A stretch of DNA of 64,000 nucleotides from Bacilli bacterium. GTDB taxonomy: Bacteria; Bacillota_I; Bacilli_A; ML615J-28; CAG-698. Within the stretch, counting starts at the first letter, position 1. Every line of letters starts with the position of its first letter. Below the pieces are notes generated by a model that saw only the letters and a program-made list of their open reading frames with translations, did no database searches and was not told the DNA's origin. The stretch covers positions 1 to 64,000 of the forward strand of contig JAGCUR010000006.1 in the NCBI GenBank assembly GCA_017962745.1, read 5' to 3'. Position numbers and translations under genes: made by a program. Positions 17,224-19,650 of the stretch are shown piece after piece.

Positions 17224-18612
17224 TTATTCTTCTTCATTAGCATCAGCATTAATATCGTCTAATACTTCTTGCTCTGCTTCGTTTTTAGCGGGTTCTTCAT
17301 CTTTCTTTAAGTGGCAGATTAAGTTAATAACTATACCTAAGATTAAAGCAACTGCTACTGCTGTTAATTGAATGCCATTGTCTGAATCGCTTGGATTTGC
17401 TGTTAATCCTAAGAAGAATCCACCAACACCAGCGATTAAGATTGTAGATACAACGAATAAGTTTCTATTATCGCCTAAATCAACTTTTTGGATCATCTTT
17501 AAGCCTGATACAGCGATGAAACCATATAATGCGATACAAACACCACCCATTACACAACTTGGGATTGTAGCAAGTAATGTAGCGAATGGGCCGATGAATG
17601 ATGCAACCATTGCCATAATAGCAGTAACTAAGATTGTGATTGTTGAAGCGTTACCAGAAATGGCAACTGTAGCGATTGATTCACCATATGTAGTATTTGC
17701 TGCACCACCGAAGAATGAACCAACCATTGAACCAACACCATCACCAAGTAATGTGTTATGAAGACCTGGATCTTTAGTTAAATCAGTTCCGATGATTGAA
17801 CTTAAGTTCTTATGGTCTGCTAAATGTTCTGCGAATACAACGAATGCTACAGGAACATAAGCGATAGCGATTTTACCAATGTAAACGCCTAAATTTCCAA
17901 CTGTTCCATAATCAAATTCAGAGAATTTAATTGCTTGTAAGAATGTGAAATGAGGAATCCATTCGATATTTTGGAATTTATCAAAGTTAATGATTGGTTC
18001 TGCACCAGTTACAGTGAAGATTGTAGCAAGTACATAACCAGCACCAATTCCGATTACGAATGGGATCATTCTAACTAATTTTTTACCAAATACTGAGCAA
18101 ATGATAGTTACGAATAATGTTAATAGACCGCATAAGATTCCAAGCCAACCAGCGCTCTTTAAATCACCAATAGCATTCCCAGCTAAGCTTAATCCGATAA
18201 TTGCAACTGTAGGTCCAATAACTACTGCTGGCATGATCTTATCGATCCATGCAGTACCTGCAAATCTAACGATAAATGAGATTAATACATAAACTAATCC
18301 AGCAAATACACAACCTAAGATTAATCCAAAGTATCCAAGTTGCATTGATACGCCACCAGCGAATGCTGCAAACATTGAGCCTAAGAAGGCAAATGAGCTT
18401 CCTAAGAATACAGGGCTTTTGAATCTAGTGAATAATAAGTATACTAGAGTACCAGCACCAGCACCAAATAATGCGGCTGCAGGGCTTAAATCATGTCCTA
18501 CGATTGCAGGAACGGCGATTGTTGCTGCTAAAATTGCTAACAATTGTTGCAATGCAAAAATCAAAATCTTTCCAACTGATGGTCTGTCTTTAACATTGTA
18601 GAATAAATTCAT
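17224..18612 (-). CDS. uraA: Uracil permease, NCS2 family
   Basis: A uracil:proton symporter of the nucleobase-cation-symporter-2 family. The protein opens with FYNVKDRPSVGKILIFALQQLLAILAATIAVP, of which the family-specific QQLLAILAATIAVP is clear. It has 12-14 hydrophobic spans, VFAEHLADHKNLS (the conserved Glu/His helix) and GGAANTTYGE (NTTYGE, substrate site). An acidic tail of about 30 residues follows the last helix. 462 residues is normal. ATG follows AAGGAGG. It is monocistronic behind an unusually long leader with a terminator-like hairpin, so its expression is probably set by transcription attenuation. Confidence 0.94.
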   Translation of the reverse strand: MNLFYNVKDRPSVGKILIFALQQLLAILAATIAVPAIVGHDLSPAAALFGAGAGTLVYLLFTRFKSPVFLGSSFAFLGSMFAAFAGGVSMQLGYFGLILGCVFAGLVYVLISFIVRFAGTAWIDKIMPAVVIGPTVAIIGLSLAGNAIGDLKSAGWLGILCGLLTLFVTIICSVFGKKLVRMIPFVIGIGAGYVLATIFTVTGAEPIINFDKFQNIEWIPHFTFLQAIKFSEFDYGTVGNLGVYIGKIAIAYVPVAFVVFAEHLADHKNLSSIIGTDLTKDPGLHNTLLGDGVGSMVGSFFGGAANTTYGESIATVAISGNASTITILVTAIMAMVASFIGPFATLLATIPSCVMGGVCIALYGFIAVSGLKMIQKVDLGDNRNLFVVSTILIAGVGGFFLGLTANPSDSDNGIQLTAVAVALILGIVINLICHLKKDEEPAKNEAEQEVLDDINADANEEE

Positions 18613-18652
18613 AATTAACCTCCTTACTACAAATGTGTTTTTCTATACCAAT

Positions 18653-18704
18653 TCAAAAATAAAGACTTGAAATGGCATCTAAATTAGATACCTCTTCCAA
18701 GTCT
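18653..18704 (-). terminator. Leader terminator (attenuator) upstream of uraA
   Basis: On the minus strand AGACTTG and CAAGTCT form the outer 7-bp stem and GGTATCTA/TAGATGCC the inner 8-bp stem, followed by TTTATTTTTG. It precedes the uraA ribosome site by about 40 nt. The preceding short reading frame terminates inside this hairpin, the geometry used by translation-coupled attenuators. Confidence 0.75.
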
Positions 18705-18791
18705 AAAAAATAAATAGTGAGGGTGGGAAAAGAAAGGAGTTATAAGAAATAAAAATAATGTTATTAGAACAATTAAATTTAAAGTTTCCAT
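18684..18791 (-). CDS. Putative uraA leader peptide
   Basis: A 35-codon frame in the uraA leader that starts with ATG 7 nt after GAGG and stops at a TAA inside the attenuator hairpin. The peptide is hydrophobic (starts METLNLIVLITLF; ends YLFFRLGRGI) and its RNA is pyrimidine- and U-rich (TTTCTTTTCCCACCCTCAC, then TTTATTTTTT) just before the hairpin. The layout resembles the E. coli pyrBI leader, where RNA polymerase pausing at U tracts under low UTP lets the ribosome disrupt the terminator. The peptide itself need not have a function. No homologue is recognised. Confidence 0.5.
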   Translation of the reverse strand: METLNLIVLITLFLFLITPFFSHPHYLFFRLGRGI

Positions 18792-18864
18792 AAAGAACCT
18801 CACTATCTATTAACTTATTTGAAAAGTTATTTTGTTTTAAACAACCTAACTTACGATTATTATA
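18705..18864 (-). promoter_or_regulatory. uraA promoter and 5' leader
   Basis: A TATAAT lies at 18864-18859 on the minus strand; the -35 is poor. The first transcribed part can fold AAGTTAGG-TTGTT-TAA-AACAA-AATAACTT. Further on ATAGTGAGG, which contains the leader peptide's ribosome site, is exactly complementary to CCTCACTAT just before the T tract, so the two can pair and hide the site. The 18613-18933 gap holds only this regulatory leader. Confidence 0.5.
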
Positions 18865-18933: not shown

Positions 18934-19650
18934 TCATTTATTTATTTTTTTATAAATCTTCTCTACACTGCTTTCAAATCCTAAAAAATGGCTATAGAAC
19001 ATATTCAAAATTAGATTCATCTCATCATATTGATAATTAATAGCATCTATTTTTTCAATAAGTTTATCTAGCTTTACTAAATATAATAATCTAAAAGTTT
19101 CAAATTCAAAATTAGTTAAATGGTAATCTTTAATATCTTTACAATGATTACACTTCATTCCGCCATCAAATAAAGAAAAATATGCTAATTCTTCTTTTGA
19201 ACCACATCTAACACAACTATTAAAATTAGGAGATAAACCGATTAAATATAAAAACTTAATCCTAAAAATCAATTCTATCAAATTATGATCAATCTTTTGA
19301 TTAATTAAATCTAGACATTGTTTTAAAAATTCATAAGCAGTTTTGGTATCATTAATATGCTCTACAAGCATATTAATAATTTCAAATATTCTTAAAGCAG
19401 ATTTAGTAAGTTTAATATCATTAACAATATTAGTATAATAATTTTCTACTTTACCACCGATTAAGTATTTACCTCTATCTTCGTATTTAAGTAAAATAAA
19501 CTCTTTCGCAAAATTAAAAGTATGACTTGATGGCTTTTGGGCACCTTTAACCGTTAGGCTCTTAAGCCCTGAAATTGTAAAAAGGGTGATAATTTTATTA
19601 CTATCACCATAATCGATTGATTTAATTACAATTCCTTCGTTTTCAATCAT
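18934..19650 (-). CDS. recO: DNA repair protein RecO
   Basis: It loads RecA with RecF/RecR and anneals single strands in recombinational repair. An N-terminal OB fold begins IENEGIVIKSIDYGDSNKIITLFT (short pieces GIVIKSIDYGDSNKI are diagnostic). A helical domain follows, with a C-x2-C...C-x2-C zinc site (CVRCG and CNHCK). 238 residues is normal. It ends the phoH-ybeY-cdd-era-recO run and starts 1 bp after the era stop codon. Confidence 0.93.
   Translation of the reverse strand: MIENEGIVIKSIDYGDSNKIITLFTISGLKSLTVKGAQKPSSHTFNFAKEFILLKYEDRGKYLIGGKVENYYTNIVNDIKLTKSALRIFEIINMLVEHINDTKTAYEFLKQCLDLINQKIDHNLIELIFRIKFLYLIGLSPNFNSCVRCGSKEELAYFSLFDGGMKCNHCKDIKDYHLTNFEFETFRLLYLVKLDKLIEKIDAINYQYDEMNLILNMFYSHFLGFESSVEKIYKKINK

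Follow-up and report, generated by a model that had tools for sequence, protein, structure and literature searches.

How does a bacterium without PyrR control its uptake of uracil? The uraA locus in the window, by which we mean the whole 64,000-nt stretch of DNA analysed here, raises this question. A sequence-only reading had proposed that the gene is preceded by an attenuator of the E. coli pyrBI type. The putative attenuator is located on the minus strand, between recO (18934-19650) and uraA (17224-18612), and consists of the following features, in the direction of transcription:

18859..18864, minus strand: -10 promoter hexamer TATAAT of the leader transcript, from sequence
18798..18806, minus strand: ATAGTGAGG, which holds the leader ribosome-binding site GAGG and is the exact complement of 18714-18722
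18684..18791, minus strand: leader frame of 35 codons, METLNLIVLITLFLFLITPFFSHPHYLFFRLGRGI, with its ATG at 18791 and its TAA ending at 18684
18703..18772, minus strand: U-rich, pyrimidine-rich tract within the frame, the proposed zone of UTP-sensitive pausing, from sequence and from the U enrichment in 29 leaders
18714..18722, minus strand: CCTCACTAT, complement of the leader ribosome site, in this genus only, from sequence and the sister genome
18663..18704, minus strand: intrinsic terminator hairpin (the attenuator), a two-tier stem with the leader stop codon inside, from folding and sister-genome changes
18654..18662, minus strand: U-rich tail of the terminator, TTATTTTTG, from sequence
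18619..18625, minus strand: uraA ribosome site AAGGAGG, from sequence
17224..18612, minus strand: uraA, NCS2 uracil permease, the controlled gene, from family models and a structure-sequence match

Sequence and fold together confirm the 35-codon leader frame with its ribosome site, its U-rich tract and its stop codon inside a two-tier terminator, as originally described, except that the spacer between GAGG and ATG is 6 nt rather than the 7 nt claimed. The exact 9-nt complementarity of ATAGTGAGG and CCTCACTAT ahead of the terminator is likewise as claimed. Transcription is expected to start near 18851, and a leader of about 60 nt separates TATAAT from ATAGTGAGG; TATAAT-type promoters lie 24-80 nt 5' of most leader frames without a riboswitch in the 29-leader set described below. 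The terminator hairpin (18704-18663) has a folding energy of -20.9 kcal/mol and z = -6.6, and its stem ends 50 nt before the uraA start codon. Scanning the window for short frames with a ribosome site that end at a terminator gave one match among 106 terminator-like hairpins, and when the upstream DNA is shuffled a frame with a ribosome site ends at this stem in just 1.2% of cases. At the 5' end of the leader transcript there is a second hairpin (AAGTTAGGTTGTTTAAAACAAAATAACTT, window 18812-18853), unchanged in the sister species, which is possibly an RNA-stabilising 5' structure.

The uraA product matches the NCS2 family, with uracil permease as the best model at 263.8 bits, a score that does not reach the curated NCBIfam cut-off of 477. 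It also matches the solved structures of E. coli UraA by sequence and keeps the positions E241 and Y288-G289-E290 of that protein. In two f11 genomes with the same type of leader (G085 and G165), upp, whose product is the enzyme that uses uracil, lies directly 3' of uraA. Based on the model match, the kept UraA residues and the neighbouring upp, uracil is the likely substrate of the permease. The permease itself (window 17224-18612) is 55-69% identical to clostridial uracil permeases and about 38-45% identical to most of those in its own family, suggesting horizontal transfer or an old paralogue.

We identified 29 distinct leaders with this layout ahead of uracil permease genes; 25 come from seven families of the class and four from named public genomes. 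In distant genomes the peptide is wholly different and the layout recurs: a ribosome site, a frame of 23-45 codons, a stop codon at the base of the stem or inside the terminator (mostly at offset +2), then uraA. Within the order, 13 of 20 uraA loci have the layout. Across 395 sampled genomes of the class, it occurs at every sampled uraA locus of families f7, f11, f18, f20 and f25 and is absent from those of f4, f8, f10, f12, f14, f19, f21 and f22; the short frames at the f19, f21 and f22 loci, which have 14-20 codons or are the ends of genes lying upstream, were left out of the counts. Among 22 loci tested by shuffling the upstream DNA, 16 show the layout where 0.54 would be expected, but these loci were picked partly for showing it, so that the rates per locus, 0-8%, are the safer figure. 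The four cases outside the class set are L098, L103, L126 and L127. Of these, the clostridial L103 and L127 are weak: their ribosome sites are poor, their shuffle rates are 0.08 and 0.05, and their genomes contain PyrR.

The only other genome available for the genus, with a UraA that is 92% identical, carries an identical stretch of 117 nt that runs from the leader ribosome site into the hairpin and is flanked by differing DNA. The DNA of the leader frame is the same in both genomes but for one base, inside the hairpin, and the three changes in the hairpin either keep the base pairs or fall in the loop. No case of the layout was found before the pyrB genes of the order, and one clear case was found among 23 upp genes. 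This is L231 (G298), a frame with a ribosome site (MEKVFVTKVDNSRMSKPISFLIFKLFSGILG) that overlaps a terminator upstream of upp, giving a second pyrimidine salvage gene so arranged. We conclude that the element is real, recurrent and regulatory.

Comparison of the leaders with one another shows which of their properties are retained. Across the well-aligned pairs (L010/L167, L178/L182, L178/L098, L182/L098, L003/L020 and L196/L200), gaps are all multiples of three and columns are all in frame, while the differences are spread about evenly over the three codon positions (for example, 17/15/12). The remaining six pairs (53-63% identity) give mixed-frame alignments that are little informative. The open frame, whose conservation in relatives had been put forward as a check on the proposal, is kept across seven families. 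The leader peptides are unrelated between families, and their amino acids are without visible constraint. A frame that is kept around a peptide that is not is the pattern expected if translation of the leader matters and its product does not. At the nucleotide level, U makes up 0.33 of the first half of the frame and 0.50 of the second (p = 8e-6, 29 leaders). Over the 50 nt that precede the stem, the leaders have an A/T asymmetry of 0.344, compared with 0.018 in 26 control terminator leaders that are somewhat richer in G+C than the uraA leaders (p = 1e-7).

Absence of pyrR had been named as a further check, and it holds for the window's own genome, which has no PyrR and whose family has no PyrR-binding element. 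Neither outcome named beforehand as refuting the proposal was seen: a frame lost in relatives that keep the hairpin, or a PyrR hairpin together with dependence on pyrR. Specifically, no PyrR match reaches cut-off in any of the class's 26 leader genomes, including this one (G000), with controls such as B. subtilis positive, and the PyrR-binding element RF00515 is found in 0 of 28 genomes of the family. By comparison, PyrR occurs in 20 of the 44 other genomes that carry this permease (Fisher p = 1.6e-5 against 0/26, with relatedness not corrected). Same-class genomes without the leader frame have a PyrR-binding RNA before the related permease (L206, L208, L209 and, marginally, L199), and same-class and clostridial relatives have either PyrR elements or pyrR adjoining the gene. 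On our best reading, a ribosome-mediated attenuator stands in for PyrR in the leader genomes.

Other components were searched for in the same genomes. All 26 leader genomes lack Rho (0 of 32 genomes searched have rho, controls positive), and for this reason a Rho site in the U tract was ruled out. Aspartate carbamoyltransferase is above cut-off in one of the 26 (G036); based on this single enzyme, its absence suggests that most leader genomes are without de novo pyrimidine synthesis. Pairing of an antiterminator with the 5' arm of the stem does not exceed chance in the leaders (mean z +0.30, compared with -0.79 in controls, p = 0.006). The stem ends 23-75 nt (median 43) from the uraA start, leaving no space for a second promoter in most loci.

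We propose, with a probability of about 0.7, that the element is a UTP-sensitive, ribosome-mediated transcription attenuator working like that of E. coli pyrBI. The U-rich tract, the position of the terminator and the lack of an antiterminator all fit, and in its main part the original pyrBI-type proposal holds. From the anatomy we infer that UTP is the signal, that a ribosome does the blocking, that leader translation is needed and in which direction the system responds; the case for UTP is built on the U tract, the target gene and the replacement of PyrR. RNA polymerase would start near 18851 and transcribe the leader. With UTP plentiful, it would outpace the ribosome across the U-rich portion of the frame, the terminator hairpin (18704-18663) would form, and transcription would stop before uraA. 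With UTP low, polymerase would slow in the U-rich tract and allow the ribosome on the 35-codon frame to catch up; positioned on the stop codon within the hairpin, or close to it, the ribosome would cover the 5' arm, so that uraA would be transcribed and more uracil taken up. The leader peptide itself would be inert, the act of translation being what counts. Bacillota are classed as runaway transcribers, and Rho has been lost in some Bacilli (PMC13323073). Because of this runaway transcription, ribosome catch-up is not the default, and the model requires strong pausing: the leader would be off by default, and only a strong pause would turn it on.

The main rival has the same anatomy and another signal. 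Here, ribosome-mediated attenuation would sense translation capacity or ribosome loading instead of UTP: a T-rich pause of the NusG type would allow the ribosome time for initiation, and the terminator would be opened by a ribosome that is slow or has stalled close to the stop codon, as proposed for B. subtilis tlrB. T-rich sites do pause B. subtilis RNA polymerase with NusG, and in the tlrB precedent such a pause is combined with a ribosome near the stop codon that interferes with the terminator (PMC6851288). TTNTTT motifs are present in 26 of the 29 leaders, which agrees with this explanation; however, they are expected in any U-rich stretch and do not discriminate it from UTP sensing. Since the layout is bound to uracil permease genes and alternates with PyrR control, we regard a translation-capacity signal as unlikely. 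Attenuation through phenylalanine (or serine) codons is the least probable explanation that we considered. The U tract encodes many phenylalanines and serines, and 19.5% of the residues encoded by the second half of the frames are phenylalanine. Yet TTT and TTC are no commoner in frame (19.5%) than out of frame (19.9%, p = 0.89), so it seems that the nucleotide run was selected rather than the codon. Given that there is no in-frame excess of phenylalanine triplets and no competing antiterminator, sensing of phenylalanine codons was rejected, and the product is moreover a uracil permease.

Two further explanations dispense with a role for leader translation in control of uraA. If the leader RNA were bound as a switch by some protein or small molecule, the frame would be incidental; the usual control of Bacillota pyrimidine genes by PyrR and the presence of other unclassified terminator leaders nearby, before uraA and pyrB, lend this some plausibility. 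However, no RNA sequence or structure common to all leaders is apparent, the leader itself has no Rfam match, there is no antiterminator, and the frame is kept open beyond chance, which together make a binding factor improbable. Alternatively, the frame could encode a small protein, have a terminator of its own and lie upstream of uraA by chance. Under runaway transcription it is normal for terminators to be close to stop codons. Terminators in B. subtilis often follow stop codons by a few nucleotides, so that the short distance from stop to terminator is that of a usual gene end there (PMC7858274). Against this, the peptides are unrelated between families and show no amino-acid constraint, a uraA promoter usually has no space past the terminator, and seven families have the layout ahead of uracil permease genes. 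We therefore consider an independent small gene highly improbable, and retain UTP-sensitive attenuation as the preferred reading.

The complementarity between ATAGTGAGG and CCTCACTAT had been suggested to add a second switch that hides the ribosome site. This 9-nt helix is beyond chance in this genome (p = 0.010 against leader shuffles) and is conserved in the sister species; it was not found in other leaders and is limited to the two genomes of this genus. Thus the complementarity is real, and the switch is at most a local addition. In this genus, pairing of CCTCACTAT with the leader ribosome site may keep out ribosomes still unloaded when polymerase arrives at the U tract, or the helix may serve as a pause hairpin. 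For pyrBI, a hairpin ahead of the U tract is sometimes proposed. We rejected a conserved hairpin at this position among the leaders, where it is plausible by eye in L003, L009, L046 and L050 (mean z -0.30, p = 0.16 against shuffles). This negative result agrees with the report that the pyrL pause seems not to need an RNA hairpin (PMC9291695).

Several of the leaders are preceded by a purine riboswitch (RF00167), which lies before the leader-peptide attenuator at L005 (2124-2225), L006 (1966-2068), L009 (3095-3196), L010 (197-298), L022 (487-588), L046 (1154-1254) and L167 (550-651) and has its own terminator in several of these loci. A single transcript may therefore respond first to a purine signal and further along to a pyrimidine one. 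We suggest a wider reading, with even odds, in which the element is a gauge of the distance between ribosome and polymerase that controls uracil uptake in Bacillota without PyrR and Rho. It would be off by default because the ribosome lags behind polymerase, would turn on only when low UTP holds polymerase in the U tract, and would have replaced PyrR in at least seven families. In several genomes it would act in tandem with a purine riboswitch, and a single leader may then sense purine and pyrimidine status together.

Leaders of other kinds occur nearby. Upstream of pyrB, L141, L142, L145, L147 and L148 are terminator leaders without a leader frame, with stretches common to related genomes. 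In family f2, the two genomes of L037 and L039 have in common an unclassified leader (GAGAACAAGGCCCTTTGGCAAACAAAGTGCTTACATGAATGGAGGATAAAGATTTATTAAATATC), conserved between them, which precedes a terminator and lies some 80-210 nt 5' of uraA; the L037 leader has no Rfam match. In family f22, the uraA leaders L168-L174 have a terminator and no leader frame, just one of these genomes has PyrR, and the two leaders scanned (L168 and L171) have no Rfam match.

A mechanism of the pyrBI design in Bacillota, a phylum classed as transcribing in the runaway mode, would show how such cells still make use of coupling, and the attenuator would provide a natural reporter of the distance between ribosome and polymerase. 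It would further account for the control of uracil uptake in many PyrR-less bacteria that are apparently unable to make pyrimidines from aspartate. In a search of the open-access literature, we found no description of an attenuator of the pyrBI type in Bacillota, or ahead of a uracil permease gene.

Leader peptides are known in Bacillota for amino acids and antibiotics (PMC2965389, PMC6851288). Among these are the his leader peptides of bacilli (PMC2965389) and a leucine-rich leader peptide in S. aureus (PMC5794164); both attenuators use runs of the sensed codon, unlike the leaders here, which have none. The leader of B. subtilis tlrB (yxjB) resembles the leaders here in being a Gram-positive leader frame with a T-rich pause, where a ribosome near the stop interferes with the terminator (PMC6851288), and differs in that it answers tylosin stalling and controls a 23S rRNA methyltransferase. 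The PyrR-binding attenuators of Bacillota (RF00515) likewise place a terminator before pyrimidine uptake genes, including the related permease in same-class genomes, whereas here there is neither PyrR nor RF00515, and a ribosome frame takes the place of the binding loop. The E. coli pyrBI attenuator is the textbook example of nucleotide sensing via ribosome-polymerase coupling. Like the leader described here, it has a leader frame with a ribosome site (44 codons, compared with 35 here), a U-rich tract in the frame, an intrinsic terminator and a pyrimidine gene right behind; the pyrL frame carries its U/C tract (CCGTTTTTCTTCCCG) before the terminator, and coupling across pyrL is required to prevent the terminator in E. 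coli (PMC5021804). The leader peptide has no similarity to E. coli pyrL; the likeness proposed is one of mechanism, and we do not class the two as homologues. The two systems also differ in that the E. coli frame spans the whole terminator and ends beside pyrB, whereas the frame here stops within the stem or at its base; in that the target there is aspartate carbamoyltransferase and here a permease; and in that the setting here is a Bacillota lineage without Rho and PyrR, in some relatives with a purine riboswitch in front.
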